Source: a virus | Direction: 5' to 3' (one strand) | DNA: 52,245 bases | Virus record (IMG/VR): IMGVR_UViG_3300028556_000012 | Span: 1 to 52,245 of that record | Shown: in pieces, positions 3,020 through 42,601 of the stretch | Layout of the letters: each line of letters starts with the position of its first letter | Position numbering within the stretch: position 1 is the stretch's first letter | The notes under the pieces: generated by a model | The model's input: only the letters and a program-made list of their open reading frames with translations | The model's database searches: none | Told to the model about the DNA's origin: nothing | Made by a program: the position numbers and the translations under genes

Positions 3020-3845
3020 CGAAGCCGCCTCCCCAAGACGGCGCCGTCTGCGGCGCCTTGTTAATAAGCGTCTTGTGCTCGGTAAGAAGCATCCGTGCCG
3101 GATCGGCGTAAAGGATCACCGGATGCTCGGCTTTAACATCGGTCTTACCCTCGGAGTTCTTGACGATCGCTACTTTGTACTCCCCGGTATCGACGTTGAA
3201 ACCAACCGAGAACACAAGCCGGGGGTACTGGGTGATCTTCCCGAGAATCTTTGTGCGAGCCGCGGGCTCGGCCGACTCTAGGTCGGTTGTGTGATGGGCG
3301 GCGATAATCGCGCACTGCTCGCGCCTGGCTATCTGGTCAAGCTCTAGCGTCAGTGCTTTAAGCGTGGCCCACTCGTTGTCGTAAGCGCTGGCCTGGTTGC
3401 CGAGGTTGTCTACTAGCACCAGATCCGGTGGCAACCCGTAGCGCTGCTCGAAAGCGTCTATCTGTAGCTGGATGTCATCAGGCGTAGGAGCGTAGAAGAC
3501 TGCTTGCACATCCGGGAGCTGGTCGAGCAGCAGCTCCCGGTACTTTTCTTCGCCGTTGATAATCCCCTGCTTAACTACGCCGTAGTCTTCACCGGTAAGG
3601 ATGCTCGCAAAGCGAGCACTAGCGGTCAGCTCGGTTGTGTCAAGCAAGAAAGCAAGCGAAGGAACCTTCATCCCAGCTATCAGGTTCATAGCTAGCAGAG
3701 ACTTCCCCGCTGCCGGGGGTCCCACTATCAGAGTCAATTGCCCCCGGCAGATGTTCGCTCCCGCGAACTTAAGGGACTCATAGACAGTGGGAAGTGGGAC
3801 CCCCGACGATCCACGGCGCTCTAGCGCCTGGGCGAGAGAGAGCAC
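2997..3845 (-). CDS. DnaB-like replicative helicase (RecA-fold ATPase)
   Basis: 282 residues. Walker A GPPAAGKS (42-49), Walker B DLVLVDN (141-147) and the AAHHT sensor-like motif (182-186) identify a RecA-fold hexameric helicase of the DnaB type. It lacks the N-terminal DnaB domain, as is common for phage versions of about 280 residues. Expected to unwind DNA at the fork together with the CHC2/Toprim primase. The C-terminus is Gly-rich (WGGGFGGYRHSS) and overlaps the SLOG start by 23 bases. Confidence 0.85.
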   Translation of the reverse strand: MLSLAQALERRGSSGVPLPTVYESLKFAGANICRGQLTLIVGPPAAGKSLLAMNLIAGMKVPSLAFLLDTTELTASARFASILTGEDYGVVKQGIINGEEKYRELLLDQLPDVQAVFYAPTPDDIQLQIDAFEQRYGLPPDLVLVDNLGNQASAYDNEWATLKALTLELDQIARREQCAIIAAHHTTDLESAEPAARTKILGKITQYPRLVFSVGFNVDTGEYKVAIVKNSEGKTDVKAEHPVILYADPARMLLTEHKTLINKAPQTAPSWGGGFGGYRHSS

Positions 3846-4184
3846 CTAGCCACCCAGCAGGACGGCCAGGCCGCCGCTGGCCTTGCCGTCGCAGAACGCG
3901 CCCATCAGATCGACCAGGGCGCGAACGGTATCGTCTTCGCCCTTGCGGTAGAACATCAGCGTGCCCTCGATGTCGAACGATTCCTGGGCCGCCGCCAGGT
4001 CGGCCTCGTAACCGCCGTCGAGCACGCTGTCCAGCGCTTCGCTGACCGCTGCGGTGTCCCTTCGCGGCGTCTCCACCGGCTCGCCGCCGACGCGCACCAG
4101 CACCAGCCGCAGCGTGCGCGCTTCTTCCTCGGTCAGCGAGAGCTGGATGTCGCTTGACCGCTTAACCGTCTTTGCCTCAGCCAT
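3846..4184 (-). CDS. Hypothetical protein, GC-rich codon use
   Basis: 112 residues (MAEAKTVKRSS...). Starts with a short basic stretch, then LSLTEEEARTLRLVL, which resembles a regulatory or structural helix pair; ends VDLMGAFCDGKASGG. Codon choice is strikingly richer in GCC, GGC and CTG than in its neighbours, which favour GCT, AAG and TTA-containing junctions, suggesting recent acquisition. No family recognised. Confidence 0.7.
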   Translation of the reverse strand: MAEAKTVKRSSDIQLSLTEEEARTLRLVLVRVGGEPVETPRRDTAAVSEALDSVLDGGYEADLAAAQESFDIEGTLMFYRKGEDDTVRALVDLMGAFCDGKASGGLAVLLGG

Positions 4185-4835
4185 TTAGGCTGCCTCCTTC
4201 ACGCCTTTCGGCATCTCGTCGTTGTCCAGCAGGACTTTGAACATCTGGCGTGCAGCCGAGAGGTAAACCACGATCCCCTCTGGCTGCATAAACCCAGGCG
4301 CCGCTAGGGAGCCTTGCTCCCTAAGCAGATCTAGCGCCTTAGTGATCTCGGTTTCGCTGAATGTGTGCTCAGTGATAACTGGCACAACCCCGAGGCCAGG
4401 GGTAAGGAACGGCACCGCAGTGCCGTCTGCCTGATTGCCCCAGCGGTGGGTGTTGAACAGCGAGAACCGCTTGTGATCCAGCCCGTAACGCCGCTGGATA
4501 CCACTCCCCCACCGCTCCCCGAAGTGGATACCGGGGCCGAGATCGTGAGCGAGGTAAGCGGCGTTCTCATGGGTCCAGCTAGCGAAGCCGAAGTTGTCGG
4601 CATCCGGGGAAATGACCCGAGTCCGTGACTGGGCGTAGACCAGGACCGGACCTAGCTCTGAGATGCGGACGTACTTAGCCGGGGTAGGTGCGCCGAGGCG
4701 CACTATCGACTCAGCGAATTCCTCGTCTAGCGAGATAACGCCTACTGCGGCGTTAGTGCCGTCGATCTTCTCTGTGATCACCATCCCCCGGCGAAGCCGG
4801 GGAATCTTAGGCCACGGAACAAACTCGATCTCCAC
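4185..4835 (-). CDS. RNA ligase family protein
   Basis: 216 residues from GTG 4835 with a clear AAGGAGG upstream. Nucleotidyltransferase motif I is EKIDGTN (22-28), with K23 as the predicted adenylated lysine. Further motifs: GERWGSG (106-112), FSLF (124-127), EGIVVY (186-191) and FKVLLD (199-204). This order fits ATP-dependent RNA ligases rather than DNA ligases, and the length is near minimal. It could repair host or phage RNA, including the phage tRNAs. A copy of the 20-bp element lies upstream. Confidence 0.85.
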   Translation of the reverse strand: MEIEFVPWPKIPRLRRGMVITEKIDGTNAAVGVISLDEEFAESIVRLGAPTPAKYVRISELGPVLVYAQSRTRVISPDADNFGFASWTHENAAYLAHDLGPGIHFGERWGSGIQRRYGLDHKRFSLFNTHRWGNQADGTAVPFLTPGLGVVPVITEHTFSETEITKALDLLREQGSLAAPGFMQPEGIVVYLSAARQMFKVLLDNDEMPKGVKEAA

Positions 4836-4852
4836 GCTAAGCCTCCTTAGCT

Positions 4853-4872
4853 GACGTTACTTACTGACTATA
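4853..4872 (-). promoter_or_regulatory. 20-bp directional element (site 2)
   Basis: Minus-strand reading TATAGTCA, four bases, GTAACGTC, ahead of the RNA ligase gene. The TATAGT portion also fits an actinobacterial -10 box. Confidence 0.75.
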
Positions 4873-4897
4873 ATGACGCTATGACGACATCATCTAG

Positions 4898-5335
4898 TCA
4901 GAGCCAGATAGCGTGGCCCTTAGCGCCCTGCGGCTTCTGGGTGCAGAAATAAGCCTGGTACGGCCCGCGAGATCCGTTGCCCGACTTGAATTGCGTAGGC
5001 CCGCCACAGTCGGGGCACGCCGGATTCAGGTTGCCCTGCGGCTGCTGCGGCTGCTGGTACGGCTGTCCGGGCGGCGTTGTCGGCGGCGCTGGCTGCGTGA
5101 CGACCTGTGCGCCGGGGAATGCGTTCTGGACAGTCTGGATCGCCTGAGCTTCGCTCACAGCCCCGGTCTGGAACTCCTGAGCCGCCAGCCTCACGGCGTT
5201 GAAGACGCCTTTAGCCCGGACTTCCTCAAGCATCCGTCCTGCGTCGTCAACGTTGTCTCCGTGGATCACAACCCACGGTGCGTCGAAGCCCGTCCCCGCC
5301 TTAAAGGTCAGGGAGATTCCGCTTGTGTCGCTCAC
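4898..5335 (-). CDS. Hypothetical protein with Gln/Pro linker and C-terminal zinc ribbon
   Basis: 145 residues. The N-terminal 80 residues look alpha/beta (SLTFKAGTGFDAPWVVIHG). A Pro/Gln-rich linker follows (about 84-105), then a C-terminal zinc-ribbon-like segment with CPDCGG near residue 110 and a further Cys in AYFCTQ. The architecture (compact domain, flexible linker, ribbon) is seen in nucleic-acid-binding phage proteins, and the position beside exonuclease and ligase fits recombination, but I cannot assign a family. Confidence 0.75.
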   Translation of the reverse strand: MSDTSGISLTFKAGTGFDAPWVVIHGDNVDDAGRMLEEVRAKGVFNAVRLAAQEFQTGAVSEAQAIQTVQNAFPGAQVVTQPAPPTTPPGQPYQQPQQPQGNLNPACPDCGGPTQFKSGNGSRGPYQAYFCTQKPQGAKGHAIWL

Positions 5336-5339
5336 TGTG

Positions 5340-6032
5340 TTACTTGCCTCCTTCGTACTCTGGGTGAGACCTGTCGTATCGGCGGGCGAGATCGCCCCCT
5401 ACTTCTGTGCAAGCCTGCGCAACCGAGCACCGGTTGCACTGGTCGCCTGGATTAGCGAGGAAGATTCCGGCATCGACAGCGAGATCGAACGTCTCAAGCT
5501 CCCTCGTTAGGTATGGAACCGAGTACTGCGGAGCATCCAGCGGCACCGGCCGCTGAAAGTACGTTGTCTCGCCTTTCTTGGTCAGCCCGCGGTGCATGAA
5601 GTAAGCGCCGTAACGCGGGCGTATACCGTAGACCTGCTCTACGCCTCCGGCGTAGATAGCTAGCTGCCTAAGACTGTCCGGGGCCTTAGCCCCGGACTTA
5701 AGGTCTACGACTACTAGAGTGCCTTTGATGTCGAGCACTAGGTCGATATACATCTGCACCGGTATCTCGCCGAACAGCGTTTTGATGCCTAGCTCGATCG
5801 CTGGGGCGCCGTTAGGGGTGATCCAGACCCCGATGTCTTCGTGTGACTCGTACCAGTCGATGAAGTTCTGGACGTAACCAGGGCCGTCTGCCATCCACTT
5901 CTCGATGGAGTAAGACACCGGCCTAGGGCCTGCCTGGAACCAGGTATCTAGCTCGAAGCCGGACTTGCTTACCTCGCGCTCGATAGCGCGGGTGAATTCC
6001 TCGCGGAAGACCGCTGCGACATCGAAGGCCAT
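5340..6032 (-). CDS. Cas4-family/RecB-like exonuclease, C-terminal piece
   Basis: 230 residues beginning MAFDVAAVFREEFTRA. Contains the PD-(D/E)XK core: the aspartate of MYIDLVLD, then VVVDLKSG as the (E/D)xK strand, and QLAIYAGG as the following helix. Near the C-terminus CNRCSVAQAC supplies three cysteines of the Cas4-type iron-sulfur cluster. The N-terminal helix pair and first Cys are missing; they are found 1 kb upstream in the 7019-7222 gene. The two pieces add to 297 residues, a normal full length. Predicted role: DNA end resection in recombination. Confidence 0.85.
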   Translation of the reverse strand: MAFDVAAVFREEFTRAIEREVSKSGFELDTWFQAGPRPVSYSIEKWMADGPGYVQNFIDWYESHEDIGVWITPNGAPAIELGIKTLFGEIPVQMYIDLVLDIKGTLVVVDLKSGAKAPDSLRQLAIYAGGVEQVYGIRPRYGAYFMHRGLTKKGETTYFQRPVPLDAPQYSVPYLTRELETFDLAVDAGIFLANPGDQCNRCSVAQACTEVGGDLARRYDRSHPEYEGGK

Positions 6033-6232
6033 TACCAGGCCACCGGCTTAAGGTAGCCCTTGTCGATCGCCCGCGTTAGGTCGCGGGCCGCCAGGGCGAG
6101 TTGCTCGTCGGCGTACTCGGCTTCGGCTGCCGAGTCGGCATACTCACCGCCGGGCGCAATCTCGGATCTGATGACGCGAAGCGCTGCTTCTAGTACGCGG
6201 TGCCTAGCAAGTATTACCTCGACGTTGCCCAT
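6032..6232 (-). CDS. Small helical hypothetical protein
   Basis: 66 residues from ATG 6232 (GGAG nine bases upstream). The sequence MGNVEVILARHRVL continues as acidic helices (DSAAEAEYADEQLALAARD). Stop TAA overlaps the start of the exonuclease C-terminal piece (TAATG). Probably a small oligomeric helical protein; no family recognised. One of four genes lying between the two exonuclease pieces. Confidence 0.65.
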   Translation of the reverse strand: MGNVEVILARHRVLEAALRVIRSEIAPGGEYADSAAEAEYADEQLALAARDLTRAIDKGYLKPVAW

Positions 6233-6234
6233 CT

Positions 6235-6381
6235 CTACGCCTGCTCCAAGCAGGCTGGGCAGATGAACACCTTGCGGTCGCTCGGCCGTGGGGCTATTGC
6301 GGGTTGCGGATACCCCTCGAACCCGCAATTCCGGCAGGACCAGTAAGGCACCTTCGGCTGCTCTTGGATCTCATCGTCCAC
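6235..6381 (-). CDS. 48-residue zinc-ribbon microprotein
   Basis: GTG start at 6381 with GAGGAAG upstream. The product VDDEIQEQPKV is followed by WSCRNCGFEGYP and a second pair, FICPACLEQA: a classic two-CxxC zinc ribbon. Stop lies three bases before the next gene. Probably a nucleic-acid or protein adaptor; function unknown. Confidence 0.7.
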   Translation of the reverse strand: MDDEIQEQPKVPYWSCRNCGFEGYPQPAIAPRPSDRKVFICPACLEQA

Positions 6382-6541
6382 GGTTTATCTTCCTCGACCT
6401 CTTAGCGATTCGGTTCTTAGCCCGTCGCTTAGCGACTTTCAGAGGGTTAGCCGTTCCCTCGTACATCCGGTAGCCGCTGGCGTTCATCGCCATCAGCAAC
6501 GCAGTTGCGAAAGAACGGTGCGGAGCGTCAGTCGTTGTCAT
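6371..6541 (-). CDS. 56-residue basic protein
   Basis: ATG 6541 overlaps the end of the upstream gene. The N-terminus is MTTTDAPHRSFATALLM; the C-terminal half is strongly basic (YEGTANPLKVAKRRAKNR, then AKRSRKINRGR). Similar short basic proteins with a YxGTxP...RRAKN signature are, as I recall, common in actinophage replication arms. Probably binds nucleic acid. Confidence 0.7.
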   Translation of the reverse strand: MTTTDAPHRSFATALLMAMNASGYRMYEGTANPLKVAKRRAKNRIAKRSRKINRGR

Positions 6542-7022
6542 TAGCTGCGTAAACCGTCTCGGCCAGTTCGTCGCGGATACCCTTGATCATTTCAAGGGTG
6601 TTCTCGCCGCTGAAGATGTCCCCCCAGATGCGCGTAGCGGAATACTGCTCCCAGCTAAGGCCGATAAGCCGGACTGCACGCACCATTGCCGGTACGCCTT
6701 CCCGGCCTGGTACGTAGTCGTAGCCGTCGTATGCCCGGCGCAGCTCGTCTGCGTCGTCTTCTGGCTCGGGCACAAGAAGGTCAGAGTTGAAGTCGTCGCC
6801 AGCCGGCGAAAGCCACTCGCCCCCGGCGAGCTGGTCGATCCAGCCAGCGAGGCACATTCCCGACTCGCAGCGCCAGTCGCCTTGGTACCACTGCCCTCTC
6901 GGTGAGACTGAGTGCAACTCGATCTGCTCGATTGCCTCATCGAGCAACGGCAGCCCGCGATTCGGGCTGACGTAAACCGACTTGCTCGCGCTGAGCACAG
7001 CGCGGCGCTTGGGCTGACTCAT
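6528..7022 (-). CDS. Hypothetical protein, CxAGW / end-helix family
   Basis: 164 residues; ATG 7022 overlaps the stop of the exonuclease N-terminal piece (ATGA). Visible motifs are WRCESGMCLAGWIDQLAGG near residue 50, a central DGYDYVPGREGVPA segment and a C-terminal FSGENTLEMIKGI. The layout (Cys-containing CLAGW or CLGVA motif, then a terminal segment with an N-T or N-D element) is shared with the right-arm protein at 45259-45705, so the phage carries two distant members of one small-protein superfamily of unknown function. Confidence 0.75.
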   Translation of the reverse strand: MSQPKRRAVLSASKSVYVSPNRGLPLLDEAIEQIELHSVSPRGQWYQGDWRCESGMCLAGWIDQLAGGEWLSPAGDDFNSDLLVPEPEDDADELRRAYDGYDYVPGREGVPAMVRAVRLIGLSWEQYSATRIWGDIFSGENTLEMIKGIRDELAETVYAANDND

Positions 7023-7222
7023 GATTCCTCTTTTGCTGAGAGGGTTGAGCGCAGATAGCGCTCAACGGTTGCGTGAACTGCTGTCCCAGCCGGGAACCAA
7101 GGTCCCGGCCTCCGTGGTACGCGCTGCACTCGGTGCAGTTCGTACCGCCTGCCGCACTCAAGGAACTCGCGGAGCGCTGTGTGACTCCGGGGCTGAGTTA
7201 CAACCGTGTGATTCTCGGTCAT
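7019..7222 (-). CDS. Cas4-family exonuclease, N-terminal piece
   Basis: 67 residues. RSHTALREFLECGRRYELH followed by PWFPAGTAVHATVERYLRS is the usual beginning of phage Cas4/RecB-family exonucleases: a helix with the first cluster Cys (LECGRRY) and the G-TAVH motif whose His helps the nuclease site. The frame then ends, and the rest of the enzyme is encoded at 5340-6032. Transcription probably starts just upstream, where a 20-bp directional element sits seven bases before the ATG. Either a naturally split two-chain enzyme or a gene broken by insertion of four genes. Confidence 0.75.
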   Translation of the reverse strand: MTENHTVVTQPRSHTALREFLECGRRYELHRVQRVPRRPGPWFPAGTAVHATVERYLRSTLSAKEES

Positions 7223-7248: not shown

Positions 7249-7278
7249 ATCCGGCGCAACTAGTACGGCTCCCTAGAC

Positions 7279-7319
7279 GCTCAGAACCCCCCGGCAGGAG
7301 CCACCGGGGGGTTCTGAGC
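7279..7319 (-). terminator. Strong hairpin, probable terminator
   Basis: A 16-bp perfect stem (GCTCAGAACCCCCCGG paired with its complement at 7304-7319) with a 9-base loop between the 7326-7604 gene and the next minus-strand gene. There is no U tract on either strand, so factor-independent termination is plausible but not certain. Confidence 0.7.
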
Positions 7320-7325
7320 TGGACT

Positions 7326-30998: not shown

Positions 30999-31667
30999 TT
31001 AACTTCTCCTGTAAGGCATTAGGGCGCACCGGCAGCGGACATGCTGCGGGGGCGCAATCGCCCCAGACGGGAACGGCGTGCCAAGAAAACGAGGCCCAGC
31101 GGCTTCGTTGGCATCACATTGGGCACAGACATCCGACGCAGGGTCGGTAACCCAGATGACTTCTGGGACGCCAGCGGCCCGGTAAATCTTCACGGTCGCT
31201 TCGCCGACAGCGCGGGTTATCTCGGTTTGCGCTATCCGCTTAGCGTGGGCGTCATCGGCAAGGACCGCGGTTATCCCCGCGGCCAAGACGTCAGCGGTAA
31301 GCCCAGCCGAGTCCGCTAGGACTCCGGCTATTCGCTTAAGCAGGGTCGAGACAATCTGCTGTAGCCAGCGAGGCCCGTAGTTGTTGATTAGGTCGAGCAA
31401 CGTCTGGCCGTCGATCTCGCCGCTAAACCCAGAAGCCTTGATAGCGGCTTCTAGGCCGAGGGCGTAGCCCTGAGCCCAGAGTGATTCGAGGACCGGCCAG
31501 AGTTTCCGGCTAAGGGCCTGGCTTACGTTCTGGTGCCTTAGCCACTCAAGGGCGTCTTCCTTGGTCGAGCCGTTAGGCCGGGCCAAGATCCAGGCCGCCG
31601 CCATAGCGGTAGCCGAGAATGCCCCTGCTACTGCTGCGGCGAGGGTTGCTCCGAGTACGGAGACCAA
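30999..31667 (-). CDS. MuF-like minor head protein
   Basis: 222 residues from TTG 31667 (start uncertain; overlaps the portal end by 40 bases). Helical N-terminus with a hydrophobic run (TLAAAVAGAFSATAMAAAWIL). The C-terminus has the MuF signature: RIAQTEITRAVG, SDVCAQCDANEA, and PPQHVRCRCALMP with a metal-binding Cys/His set. Minor virion protein adjacent to the portal. Confidence 0.8.
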   Translation of the reverse strand: MVSVLGATLAAAVAGAFSATAMAAAWILARPNGSTKEDALEWLRHQNVSQALSRKLWPVLESLWAQGYALGLEAAIKASGFSGEIDGQTLLDLINNYGPRWLQQIVSTLLKRIAGVLADSAGLTADVLAAGITAVLADDAHAKRIAQTEITRAVGEATVKIYRAAGVPEVIWVTDPASDVCAQCDANEAAGPRFLGTPFPSGAIAPPQHVRCRCALMPYRRS

Positions 31668-33544
31668 GGCCGCGTCCCGCTGCCAAACGGTCCACTGCTG
31701 GCTTTTGGGGCCGAACCACTGGCCTTGACGACCGCTCTTTCATCAGTCAGCAAGTCGGGGTTAAGTTCGAGCGCGAGTTCCTCTGTCATGTGCTCGAACT
31801 CAAACGGGCGCTTCGGCGCCGAGTGCTTAGTAACCCATCGCTCGTAGGTAACTAGCTCGGCTACCGCTGCTTTGCGGGCAGCGGCCGAGCTGGCAGGTGG
31901 CGGCTTGACTGCTGCCGGGCCTTGCTTCACCGGAGCTGGGGCCATCTCCCCGGAGCCGGGGAGCTGCTCGCTCTGCGGCTCTACGATGACGCCTGGCGCT
32001 GCTTGCTCGCTGGCGCCTTCTAGGAACACAACGCCGCGCTGCGTCATCTCCATTGGCTTGTTAGCCTCTGCGAAGGCGTACGGCGGCAGCCCGCACCGAG
32101 CGCGGTCTTCGTTGAGCGTCATAACCCCGCGGCGGATACGGGCATCTGCCACGGCGTCAGCCGCGGCCTCGTCTTCGTCTTCGAGGCCGAGGAAGTTAAA
32201 TTCAAGCTCGCTAGGTGTCCCTAGGTGCTGCGCCATGATCCGGGTAAGCATCGCGCTAACCCAGCGGGTAGTTGGCAGCGTGGCCTTGCGCCACTGCACG
32301 TCGGCCTGGCCTTCGTGGTAGCCAGACGAACCGAGCCCGCCAGGCTCGGTAAAGCCAAGCTCCGCGATCGTTACGTCGTAGTGCGAGGCAACGAGCTTGA
32401 TACAGAACAAGTCGTAATCAGGCTTGTACCGTTCCGGGGACGTCGGCGACGTAATCGGCTCGATACCAGGGGGCAGAAGCGGGTTACGGTACCTAGCCTC
32501 AGTCTGGCCAGCTAGCCGGTCGTTAAGAGCTTTCTCGTACTCAAGAACCTGCCGCGGTGTCCAGTCGGATGTGCCTTTGTTGACAAGCCACTGAACAGCT
32601 TGTGCACCTTCGGTGTACTCAGCCATCATCCACTGGAACCGCTTGTTCCAGAGCATCCCGTCGAGCAGCGCTTGCTCTGTCGGGCTGAAACCAAACGGGG
32701 TCCAAGTGCGCTTAACTCGCCGCTCGTAGATAAGCTGAGTAGCGCTAAGGCCGTTAGGTACAACTTCCAAGCCGTTTTGGGCCGCGGTGTCCGCGGTGAA
32801 CTCGCCGCGGGGGAAGCCGTAGAGCACCTGCTGGTAAGCCGCCGAAGGTGGCTCTGGCCGCCCGCCTTGCTCATCTAGCAACGGCTTAATAGTCGAGCCG
32901 TCGATAATCATGAAGTCGAGCAGGTCCCCGCCGTAAGTCTTCCGCGGGTAGATAGCCATCGCGTCCCAGACCAGATATTCCTCTAGGAGCAACGCAACCC
33001 AGGACGAGAAGTCCATACCGTTACGGCGGTCGGGCGTTGACCAGAAGTCGGTAGCGCGGTCGATCTCGCTCTTGTACTGCTGGCGAAGTTCGTTCTCGAC
33101 GTCGTGCTCTGCCCTGGACTCGTTCTTAGCCCGCTGCGCTACAGCGCGCTTAGAGATGTCGATAGACCAGTCGAGAGACGAGATCTCGTTCTTGCGGATC
33201 TCGATGCAAGTTCGGAACAGCGGCGCCTCAGCCGCTTTCTTAAGCGTCTCCCAAGGCACGATGTGGCGTCCTTGGACGCCGGGAACGTTCCACTGGACCG
33301 GGTACTGCCAGATCCGGGGCTCTGGCAGGCCGGTGTCTGTGCGGAGCTGGTCGAGCGGTTCAACCGCGATCGGCCAGCCAGGGCCGAACTCAGCGGTTAC
33401 CCATTCCTCGGGCCGGTACAGCGGGGAGCCGCCGTCGCGCATCTGCGCCTGGGCGGCGACGAGGGCCTGCACCAGCGGCGAGACGTCGGTGACACCAGCG
33501 GCGCCAGGCTTAGGGCCACGCTTAAAGACGTCGCGGAGGGCCAT
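31628..33544 (-). CDS. Portal protein
   Basis: 638 residues. Recognisable portal core: VPGVQGRHIVPWETLK, EIRKNEISSLDWSID, the wing with EYLVWDAMAIYPRKTYGG, PFGFSPTEQALLDGMLW, and ISELGF-like AELGFTEPGGLGSSGYH. The C-terminus is a Pro/Ala-rich extension. Forms the dodecameric DNA channel; located right after the large terminase. Confidence 0.9.
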   Translation of the reverse strand: MALRDVFKRGPKPGAAGVTDVSPLVQALVAAQAQMRDGGSPLYRPEEWVTAEFGPGWPIAVEPLDQLRTDTGLPEPRIWQYPVQWNVPGVQGRHIVPWETLKKAAEAPLFRTCIEIRKNEISSLDWSIDISKRAVAQRAKNESRAEHDVENELRQQYKSEIDRATDFWSTPDRRNGMDFSSWVALLLEEYLVWDAMAIYPRKTYGGDLLDFMIIDGSTIKPLLDEQGGRPEPPSAAYQQVLYGFPRGEFTADTAAQNGLEVVPNGLSATQLIYERRVKRTWTPFGFSPTEQALLDGMLWNKRFQWMMAEYTEGAQAVQWLVNKGTSDWTPRQVLEYEKALNDRLAGQTEARYRNPLLPPGIEPITSPTSPERYKPDYDLFCIKLVASHYDVTIAELGFTEPGGLGSSGYHEGQADVQWRKATLPTTRWVSAMLTRIMAQHLGTPSELEFNFLGLEDEDEAAADAVADARIRRGVMTLNEDRARCGLPPYAFAEANKPMEMTQRGVVFLEGASEQAAPGVIVEPQSEQLPGSGEMAPAPVKQGPAAVKPPPASSAAARKAAVAELVTYERWVTKHSAPKRPFEFEHMTEELALELNPDLLTDERAVVKASGSAPKASSGPFGSGTRPWSPYSEQPSPQQ

Positions 33545-38260: not shown

Positions 38261-38306
38261 GTGTGCCTAGCACTACGCACACTGCACTACCGAGAGAGAG
38301 ATAAGG
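38261..38306 (+). promoter_or_regulatory. Leader hairpin plus purine-rich ribosome site
   Basis: GTGTGC (38261-38266) pairs with GCACAC (38277-38282); then GAGAGAGAGATAAGGAGA leads to ATG 38315. The same plan recurs before the genes at 39590 and 40641, and after the gene ending at 40441. Confidence 0.6.
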
Positions 38307-38314
38307 AGATAGCT

Positions 38315-39508
38315 ATGGCTAACTACGTAAAGCATTCACAACGGACTCTCCGGCGTGCGTGTGAGTTCTGCGGCTCGACCGATCGGTACTTGGCGCATGA
38401 CACAGACCAGCCCGGAAAGACCTGCGACGAATGCCACGTAACAGGCCGCATCGTGGTTATCGACCGCGATGGCACGTTGCATAACTGCCAGGGCAAGCCT
38501 GCGGCGCCAGAGGCGTTTAAGCCAATCCCGGCGCCAGTGCCCCCGCCAGCGACCCCTAGGCCGCAGGCAGAGGCTAACGGCAACGGTGGCCAGACTGATC
38601 GGCTCAAGGTGCTGTCGGAATTGATTGACGTCCTACAGCCTGCGAGCATCGACGCTGATGAGGTTCGGAAGATCGTGGCAACGGAAGTTGCTAAGATCAA
38701 CTTCCCTACTCGGGTCGAGATCAAGGCACCTAACGGTGACCTGCGGAAGATTGAAGGCGCTACGCACAAGATCGTCCCGACGATTCTTACAATCCTCGGG
38801 AATGCGCGTAAGCACGTTCTAATGGTCGGTCCCGCTGGGACCGGTAAGTCAACGATCGCAGAGCAGTGCGCCGAGGCGCTTGGCGTGCCGTATTACTCGG
38901 TATCGCTTAGCCCGCAAACGCCTAGCTCGGCTTTGCTCGGTTACATGCAAGCCGCTGGTGAGTATGTGAGGTCTCTCTACCGAGAGGCTTACGAGCATGG
39001 CGGCGTGTTTCACTTCGATGAGTTCGACAACGCTCACCCAAGTGTGCTCGCCGTGATCAATGCCAGCTTGGCTAACGGTCACATGGCGTTCCCAGACCAA
39101 ATGGTCAAGCGTCACCCAGATTTTAGGTGCTGCGCTTCGGCCAATACCTACGGCACGGGACCCGACAGGCAGTACGTCGGCCGCCAGGCCCTAGACGCTG
39201 CGACCCTTGACAGGTTCGCTGTCGTTCCCGTAGGGGTCGATGAGGCGCTTGAGCAGCAAATCTGCGAGTCCACGGGGGCAGAAACGAGGATCGTTACTCA
39301 GGTTCTCGCGTATGTCCGTGCGCTTCGCAAGAATGCCGAACGGCACAAGATGGCGCTTATGTTCAGCCCTAGGGCTAGCGAGGGAATGTGCGCGCTTATG
39401 ACAGCGGGCATTAACCGAGACGACGCCATCGCGTACCGCGTGCGCAAGGGAATCTCGGACGCAGACTGGTCAAAGGTCAACAGCGGGGTACCGCTGCCGA
39501 CTATTTAG
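38315..39508 (+). CDS. MoxR/CobS-like AAA+ ATPase
   Basis: 397 residues from ATG 38315 (AAGGAG upstream). N-terminal zinc motif (C16, C19, C37, C40), then a Pro-rich linker (65-95), a helical region, and the AAA+ core: Walker A GPAGTGKS (172-179), Walker B VFHFDEF (231-237), sensor-like ASANTYGTG, arginine-finger region LDRFAVVPV. MoxR/CobS ATPases remodel partners that carry VWA domains; the next gene and its paralog at 41720 are VWA-like, giving a phage AAA+/VWA system of unknown target. Confidence 0.85.
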   Translation: MANYVKHSQRTLRRACEFCGSTDRYLAHDTDQPGKTCDECHVTGRIVVIDRDGTLHNCQGKPAAPEAFKPIPAPVPPPATPRPQAEANGNGGQTDRLKVLSELIDVLQPASIDADEVRKIVATEVAKINFPTRVEIKAPNGDLRKIEGATHKIVPTILTILGNARKHVLMVGPAGTGKSTIAEQCAEALGVPYYSVSLSPQTPSSALLGYMQAAGEYVRSLYREAYEHGGVFHFDEFDNAHPSVLAVINASLANGHMAFPDQMVKRHPDFRCCASANTYGTGPDRQYVGRQALDAATLDRFAVVPVGVDEALEQQICESTGAETRIVTQVLAYVRALRKNAERHKMALMFSPRASEGMCALMTAGINRDDAIAYRVRKGISDADWSKVNSGVPLPTI

Positions 39509-39539: not shown

Positions 39540-39589
39540 GTGACCGTTGTCAAGTGTGCCTAAGTAGGAACACTAGAGAGGGAGAGATA

Positions 39590-40441
39590 ATGGCTACAGA
39601 GGATGTAGTGACTAAGAATAGCGTCCGCTGCACCTATTACTCACTCGATGAGTTTGCAGATGCAGCGGAGCGGCGCGTCAAGATGGGACCGGGGATTCAC
39701 AGGGAAATAGGTCCTAACGTTGACGCCTGGCGCGGTGGCAGCATGGAAGATGGCTACCGCATGGCGCGTACCGGCTGGGAAGATGACCTAACCGAGACTC
39801 TAGAGATCGTTGAGTCTGCCGTCGAAATGGCCGTCCGCGAGCACGAGATAGAGGCGTTTGTGCCTGTATACGACGTCTCGGGCTGCGAAGTTGACGTTGC
39901 TAGGTATCTCGCTGGCACGCCGGAAAACATGATTGATTACCCGTTGCAAGCTACCTCTAAGGTAGGACGGGTAATCACGTTGTGCGCTGGCGTGTCTATG
40001 TCGTCAAGCATCAAGCCTGCGACCGCGATTCGCAGAGGCCAGGTTATCGCCGCATTCGCTATGGCGCTTACGCGCCTAGGGCATTCTGTCGAGATGTGGG
40101 CAGACCACACCGCTAGCAGGAATGGCAAAAGCGAAACCATCCGAGTGCTAGTGAAAGGCACAAACGACACACTCGATCCGTCCCGGATCTTGTTTGCCTA
40201 CGCTAGCCCGCTGATGTGCCGGGCACTGTGTTTCTCGGTAATGAACGGGCTGCCCGCTGAATTCCGGGAAGCAATCGGTATATCTGCCAATGGCGGCTAC
40301 GGTCGGCCATGCCCCCCGGTAGAAGACCTGCCGGAAGGGACGATCTACTTGCCGGAGTTGTGCTCTGGCTATGACGTTCCCGATGCCCACACCCAGCTCG
40401 CAGAGATGCTAAGGGAAGTCGGCCTGCTTAAGGAGGATTAA
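39590..40441 (+). CDS. VWA-like protein, copy 1 (DUF7192-like)
   Basis: 283 residues from ATG 39590 after GAGAGGGAGAGATA. Features shared with copy 2: RCTYYSLDEFADAAERR, the D-WRGG motif, ENMIDYPLQATSK, a VWA-like core GQVIAAFAMALTRLGHSVEMW, and VLVKGTNDTLDP followed by ILFAYASP. VWA proteins bind metal and partner with MoxR ATPases as in CobS-CobT. The canonical metal motif DxSxS is not obvious (GVSMSSS is the closest), so metal binding is uncertain. Confidence 0.7.
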   Translation: MATEDVVTKNSVRCTYYSLDEFADAAERRVKMGPGIHREIGPNVDAWRGGSMEDGYRMARTGWEDDLTETLEIVESAVEMAVREHEIEAFVPVYDVSGCEVDVARYLAGTPENMIDYPLQATSKVGRVITLCAGVSMSSSIKPATAIRRGQVIAAFAMALTRLGHSVEMWADHTASRNGKSETIRVLVKGTNDTLDPSRILFAYASPLMCRALCFSVMNGLPAEFREAIGISANGGYGRPCPPVEDLPEGTIYLPELCSGYDVPDAHTQLAEMLREVGLLKED

Positions 40442-41719: not shown

Positions 41720-42601
41720 ATGACTGAGCATGAGAACGTAGTCAGCGGAGACGGCAAAGAAGTCCGCTGCACCTACTGGTCGCTAGACGAATACGCCGAA
41801 GCCGCAGAGCGGCGCTCGACTCAGGGTGAGCTTGGATGGCGGAAGCGGCTGGACGGCGACACCGACTGGCGCGGTGGCACGTTCAACGATGCTCTTAAAC
41901 TGGCTCGTTTCGGCTGGGAAGACAAGCTGCAAACTGCGCTAGATATCGCAGAGTCGGCTTTGGATTACACGGTAAGAGAACACGAGATCGACTCGTTTGT
42001 CTCGACTTACGACTACGCAGGCTGCGAGGTCGATGTCGCTAGGTACCTTACCGGCGTTCCCGAGAACATGATCGACTATCCGCTGCAAGCGACGTCTAAG
42101 CTCGGCCGCGTAATCACGCTGTGCGGATCGATCGCGGCTAGCGGTGCGATGGACCCCGAAGACCTGATTCGCCGCGGGCAGGTGATAACAGCATTCGCTA
42201 TGGCGCTTACGCGCCTAGGGCACGCTTGTGAGCTGTGGATCGACTGCACGATATCGGCCGACTGGAATAGAGCTGCCGGGGCCACACGCGGGGTGACCCG
42301 CGTCTTGGTCAAGGGGACTAACGACACCATCGACCCAGCGCGCATTCTGTTTGCTTACGCGCACCCTGGTTCGCTTAGGTCGCTTGGGTTCGCTGTTACC
42401 CACGCTTACCCAGAGAAGTTCAGCAGCGCGTTGGGCATCGGGGGGATTTACGGCTACCCGGCAGATCCGATAGAGGATCTGCCAGAGGGCACGATCTACC
42501 TTCCGAGCGTGCTAACTGGCAAGACTAAGCCAGATGCCCATGAAGAACTGAAAGACCTGCTTAGGCAAGCAGGTCTTCTACACGAGGATGTGGACGCATG
42601 A
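41720..42601 (+). CDS. VWA-like protein, copy 2
   Basis: 293 residues, clear paralog of 39590-40441: RCTYWSLDEYAEAAERR, DWRGGTFNDALKLARFGWED, ENMIDYPLQATSK, GQVITAFAMALTRLGHACELW, VLVKGTNDTIDPARILFAYA and DLPEGTIYLP are shared. The copies differ mainly after the VWA-like strand and at the C-terminus. One ATPase with two VWA-like partners suggests alternative targets or a heteromeric adaptor. Confidence 0.7.
   Translation: MTEHENVVSGDGKEVRCTYWSLDEYAEAAERRSTQGELGWRKRLDGDTDWRGGTFNDALKLARFGWEDKLQTALDIAESALDYTVREHEIDSFVSTYDYAGCEVDVARYLTGVPENMIDYPLQATSKLGRVITLCGSIAASGAMDPEDLIRRGQVITAFAMALTRLGHACELWIDCTISADWNRAAGATRGVTRVLVKGTNDTIDPARILFAYAHPGSLRSLGFAVTHAYPEKFSSALGIGGIYGYPADPIEDLPEGTIYLPSVLTGKTKPDAHEELKDLLRQAGLLHEDVDA

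Follow-up and report, generated by a model that had tools for sequence, protein, structure and literature searches.

A Cas4-like exonuclease divided between two genes in a lineage of phages

We posit, with a probability of roughly 0.86, that two separate genes in a viral DNA fragment of 52,245 nucleotides (IMG/VR record IMGVR_UViG_3300028556_000012, positions 1 to 52,245; the window) encode a single Cas4-like PD-(D/E)XK nuclease, and that their products assemble into a two-chain enzyme with a predicted four-Cys Fe-S cluster. The split is a trait of a phage lineage, most of it uncultured, and is not peculiar to the window.

Two ends of one nuclease domain

A sequence-only reading of the window described a Cas4-family exonuclease broken into two pieces. 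Both ORFs are present on the minus strand and match opposite ends of PF12705 (PDDEXK_1; Table 1): residues 13-64 of the N piece align with profile positions 3-56 (E 3e-7, 30.9 bits) and residues 82-208 of the C piece with positions 120-246 (E 1e-9, 39 bits), each above the curated cut-off of 22 bits. The PHROGs exonuclease profiles agree with both assignments. The N piece had been called the N-terminal third of the enzyme; the piece is real, but at 67 of 297 residues it is nearer a quarter. Also present are the overlaps seen at the two gene boundaries, ATGA at 7019-7022 (N stop/next ORF) and TAATG at the C start. An alignment with ten uninterrupted homologues, drawn from phages of Mycobacterium, Gordonia, Rhodococcus, Streptomyces and Propionibacterium, places the end of N at the beginning of C, with almost no residues lost or repeated; the N piece terminates after the helix bearing G-T-A-V-H and the C piece opens at the following helix. 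In the window they lie 974 bp apart, from the stop to the start of the next frame.

Table 1. Features of the split nuclease locus in the window
Feature	Position	Strand	Description
Terminator-like hairpin preceding the N chain	7273-7320 (about)	-	AACCCCCCGGTGGCTCCTGCCGGGGGGTT
N chain, split nuclease	7019-7222	-	67 aa; PF12705 match; C23 (first cluster Cys), G46-T-A-V-H50 metal-ligand motif, E54
Intervening ORF 1	6528-7022	-	164 aa; weakly DUF6197-like (weak Pfam match only)
Intervening ORF 2	6371-6541	-	56 aa, basic; C-terminal part of phrog_1622, PHROGs E 2e-12
Intervening ORF 3	6235-6381	-	48 aa small zinc ribbon; two CxxC pairs, weak zinc-ribbon matches
Intervening ORF 4	about 6032-6232	-	about 66 aa, likely helical; stop overlaps C-chain start (TAATG)
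C chain, split nuclease	5340-6032	-	230 aa; PF12705 match; E80, D97, D110-L-K112, Q123-L, Y127, C199, C202, C208

The G-x3-H, D, D/E-x-K and Q-L-x2-Y motifs and the four Cys are all found, distributed over two chains. Judged by its sequence, the window enzyme is a Cas4-like PF12705 phage exonuclease that lacks the single-chain feature: in most actinobacteria phages the enzyme is one polypeptide, and here there are two ORFs. The CRISPR Cas4 model PF01930 scores 13.9 bits against the window pieces, below its cut-off of 22.7, and no cas1 or cas2 neighbours occur among the nearby ORFs scanned (DnaB-like, RNA ligase, endonuclease VII, primase). A complete homologue elsewhere in the window record, which would speak against the split reading, was sought and not found; in all 16 of the longer split records, the window included, there is one N match, one C match and no complete copy. 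Adjacent to the C piece, the ORF at 4898-5335 (minus strand) is labelled a class II ribonucleotide reductase by PHROGs; this product, of only 145 aa, matches mycobacteriophage L5/D29 gp49 (PF25690), and the label is probably misleading.

The N piece lies just downstream of the terminator-like hairpin and is thus probably promoter-proximal, not coupled to the upstream gene. Several relatives carry a TTGACA/TATAAT-type promoter that stops just a few bases short of the N start codon, which suggests a leaderless transcript beginning with N in those phages; the window N gene, which follows the hairpin, has only a weaker promoter candidate.

A trait of a phage lineage

A search of named phages returned more than 1000 records matching each half, and those actinobacteria phages that were examined encode the Cas4 exonuclease in one continuous CDS. 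Among the records opened, the exceptions to a plain single CDS were Zeeculate, with an intein-like insert, and the unannotated OX376640 and OX376641; Streptomyces phages Olicious and Ponzi and Gordonia phage Jormungandr were considered as possible splits, and all are fused. Exact-peptide searches recovered no relatives, either for the window C piece in viral and genome contigs or for one N piece in genome contigs; profile scans found them. Two such scans of IMG/VR, one with the C piece and one with N pieces, followed by HMM searches in all frames, yielded 25 fused loci and 138 usable split ones, the latter on about 136 distinct contigs because two were fetched twice. This ratio is not a census, as the scans were seeded with split pieces. 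Clustering at 95% identity leaves 58 split and 20 fused representatives. Pieces without a partner are confined to the ends of contigs or of fetched stretches, the sole named exception being Jormungandr, in which the ORF is fused and its C part falls below threshold.

The split also occurs in cultured phages. OX376640 is LanE43-AprE7, an isolated lytic phage of 'Ca. Planktophila' (PMC10202952), in which the N and C ORFs overlap; its sister isolate F5, also lytic and taken to be OX376641, likewise has separate N and C matches. The main text of the paper on these phages makes no mention of an exonuclease (PMC10202952). The search of related phages proposed alongside the sequence-only reading therefore turned up both forms, the uninterrupted gene in named phages and the same split in IMG/VR contigs and isolates.

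A search with the window's portal protein (31628-33544, minus strand) returned one partial IMG/VR contig, at 64% identity, and only distant named phages, all at or below about 34% identity; the window's phage group is thus poorly sampled. Elsewhere in the window, two separate copies of phrog_1909, a family of unknown function, lie at 39554-40441 and 41720-42601 (plus strand), the first adjoining an AAA ATPase labelled porphyrin biosynthesis (phrog_249; 38261-39508).

On an IQ-TREE phylogeny of the 78 representatives, for which the N and C columns were joined, the distribution of the split label takes 2 changes, compared with 17.8 when labels are shuffled. The extra change comes from one fused sequence, L116, which sits on a long branch among the split rows; the AU test does not reject a single split clade (p-AU 0.137). 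This pattern points to one old fission, likely in the ancestor of the lineage. L116 is possibly an ancestral or a re-fused form, and a second fission is likewise possible. The nearest relative of the window on the tree is L096 (58% identical), followed by L014 and L015, and along its branches the pieces have gone from overlapping to separated, or back, at least six times.

The break site and the genes between the pieces

AlphaFold2 models indicate where the chain was probably cut. In the model of fused L116, the break site corresponds to a loop (residues 57-63) between helices 39-56 and 64-83, with pLDDT below 50 at residues 60-62; fission most likely took place at this indel-tolerant interhelical loop. 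The window C chain modelled alone (58 rows) has an overall pLDDT of 87, with blocks near 60 around its three Cys. Its nearest folds, ACE1, AdnA, Cas4 and MGME1, align loosely (TM about 0.42), whereas the L116 model reaches a TM of about 0.6 with ACE1, AdnA and Dna2, a contrast that is suggestive only, the two models being of different proteins and built from different alignments. An alignment that combined the fused rows with the N and C pieces misplaced the C starts and was left out of folding.

ORF positions confirm that four genes separate the pieces in the window. ORF 1 has no match among named phages, and ORFs of broadly similar type occupy the equivalent position in L014 and L096; the phrog_1622 family of ORF 2 recurs in the L014 gap, and ORFs similar to ORF 3 are found in the gaps of L014 and L015. 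No family was found for ORF 4. None of the four matches a homing endonuclease in Pfam or PHROGs, a search confined to the window.

Across the split loci the gap ranges from overlapping ORFs to 1475 bp, and its contents differ from group to group. In one group, whose gaps measure about 300-830 bp, most members carry a zinc ribbon, a helical ORF of about 62 aa, or both; in another the gap is either empty or occupied by an ORF of about 85 aa; the window and L014 have CxxG-type proteins, a small zinc ribbon of a different kind and a basic ORF resembling phrog_1622. The suggestion that the four intervening genes caused the split is not supported, because in relatives the pieces overlap, are separated by one small gene, or flank other genes. 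Gaps that are empty or differently filled imply that the fission is probably older than the window insert, and the window's four genes are most likely later cargo at the junction. The locus also illustrates how small phage genes insert repeatedly at a gene break.

The helical ORF of about 62 aa (AFVEAE-x2-MR-x-AL..., for example L079:2705-2896) is present in 31 of the 58 split representatives; its end lies near or overlaps the C start, and it was detected nowhere else in those loci. It could be a third partner of the nuclease. In L014, the segment between N and C (3647-5017) holds three CCLGVAC-type ORFs (132, about 155 and 126 aa) together with the phrog_1622-like ORF, which suggests local duplication of cargo at that junction.

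A proposed two-chain nuclease and its precedents

The division of conserved residues is uniform: in 58 of 58 split representatives the first Cys and G-x3-H reside in N, and the D, D-x-K, Q and three Cys in C. In window numbering, C23, G46, H50 and E54 of chain N and E80, D97, D110, K112, Q123, L124, Y127, C199, C202 and C208 of chain C are invariant, and these residues are conserved in the fused enzymes as well. Median pairwise dN/dS (NG86) is 0.058 for N (41 pairs) and 0.086 for C (44 pairs), as calculated from other members of the lineage, the window's nearest relative, at 58% identity, being too distant. Both pieces are under purifying selection, unlike decaying fragments.

We propose that the two polypeptides assemble into one nuclease fold, to which the N chain would contribute the first Cys and a metal-binding His and the C chain the Asp, Asp-x-Lys, Gln and three Cys; the four Cys would close the predicted Fe-S cluster across the chain boundary, and neither chain would be active as a nuclease by itself. 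A single fission in the lineage ancestor would have given rise to this arrangement, and the junction would afterwards have gained and lost small genes. The enzyme would resect DNA ends during phage replication or recombination, probably so by analogy with Cas4, AddB, AdnA and the intact phage homologues encoded beside DnaB-like helicases. Because C carries neither the first Cys nor the His, and N lacks the rest of the active site, an obligate heterodimer is the economical reading. A bolder and less probable extension holds that the lineage relies on an obligately two-subunit enzyme in which (i) the cluster and active site form only once the small promoter-proximal subunit meets the core, making activity conditional on two expression levels, and (ii) the junction is a place where small genes dock and are exchanged; the coupled helical ORF or the zinc ribbon, for example, may be an extra subunit or regulator.

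It is improbable that both proteins are functional but separate, with the N protein turned into a distinct regulator and the C protein acting by itself or through another partner. The strong promoter that some relatives place directly before the N ATG would allow its dosage to be regulated separately, and the C chain by itself is modelled with confidence, but the invariant residues of N include those conserved in the intact enzyme (S, C, L, G, H and E), and the His and first Cys are absent from C. N and C distances also co-vary (r 0.89), although shared descent alone could produce this correlation.

Joining of the pieces into one chain, through an intron, a split intein or a programmed frameshift, is very improbable. 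The absence of an intron or intein signature, reported from the sequence, holds up: at the break no Rfam family comes near its gathering score, with matches at chance level only, and the pieces are bounded by native homology, abutting in the alignment so that there is no space for intein halves. A frameshift is conceivable in relatives whose ORFs overlap but could not bridge 974 bp; furthermore, overlapping coding ORFs fill the window gap, which in other relatives is absent.

The sequence-only reading left both a working heterodimer and a broken gene open. Recent inactivation in the window phage, with the pieces as decaying remnants of a four-gene insertion, would account for four unrelated small genes lying exactly at the break, but it is scarcely credible when about 136 contigs and cultured phages share the split, some of them without an insert, when every motif is intact, and when dN/dS is low for both pieces in relatives. 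The same evidence, namely the contigs, the cultured phages, the invariant residues and the low dN/dS, strongly favors the heterodimer. That the split is an assembly chimera of the window contig, itself a single IMG/VR record, has virtually no chance of being correct, for independent contigs from many metagenomes share the arrangement and its presence in two isolate genomes excludes an artefact.

Should the two chains assemble, the four-Cys cluster and the active site of the nuclease would each be shared between polypeptides. Such an enzyme would offer a natural split nuclease for the study of cluster assembly, subunit gating and gene fission, and it is experimentally accessible in two isolated phages with a cultured host. 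We found no description of a split Cas4 in the open-licence PMC literature, an absence that is not proof. The main phylogenomic survey of Cas4 states that short fragments and disrupted sequences were excluded (PMC5704561), a possible reason why the split has gone unreported; annotation pipelines would probably call the N piece hypothetical.

The closest known counterparts are the Cas4-family exonucleases of actinobacteria phages (cluster A mycobacteriophages, for example Bxb1 gp62, and Rhodococcus, Gordonia and Streptomyces phages; phrog_1870/phrog_69), which have the same domain, motifs and four Cys and, as in the window, are encoded upstream of a DnaB-like helicase gene. In those phages the gene is continuous, whereas the window lineage has two genes and variable cargo. 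The nearest solved folds are among the cluster-binding PD-(D/E)XK exonucleases Cas4, AddB, AdnA, Dna2 and ACE1. Cas4 and AddB hold their cluster with four Cys placed around a RecB-like core, one near the N terminus and three towards the C terminus, and mutation of any of the four in the Cas4 protein Sso0001 yielded insoluble protein (PMC3466216); in these examples all four lie in one chain, whereas in the window they are divided over two.

Foreign sequence within the same kind of enzyme is known from cluster C1 mycobacteriophages, in which inteins are reported in RecB-like nucleases (PMC5050341). Such intein-interrupted RecB/Cas4-like exonucleases are expected to splice to one chain and are interrupted at another site, whereas the window lineage maintains two stable genes. 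Gp67 of Mycobacterium phage Zeeculate (L012:1752-3578) is a Cas4-like exonuclease of ~609 aa with ~325 extra residues in its catalytic core in one open frame; the insert is most likely an intein.

Working split pairs have precedent, since Aeh1 NrdA and gp43A/B of phage 25 are active as two chains (PMC2988022). Along with gp43A/43B of phage 44RR and T4 gp39/gp60, they represent one enzyme made of two reassembling polypeptides (PMC2988022), as we propose here. Those splits are associated with a homing endonuclease (mobE in Aeh1 NrdA) or an untranslated spacer, whereas the window's four genes include no recognised homing endonuclease. Unlike these phage splits, the one described here spans a lineage and divides a predicted metal cluster together with the active site.
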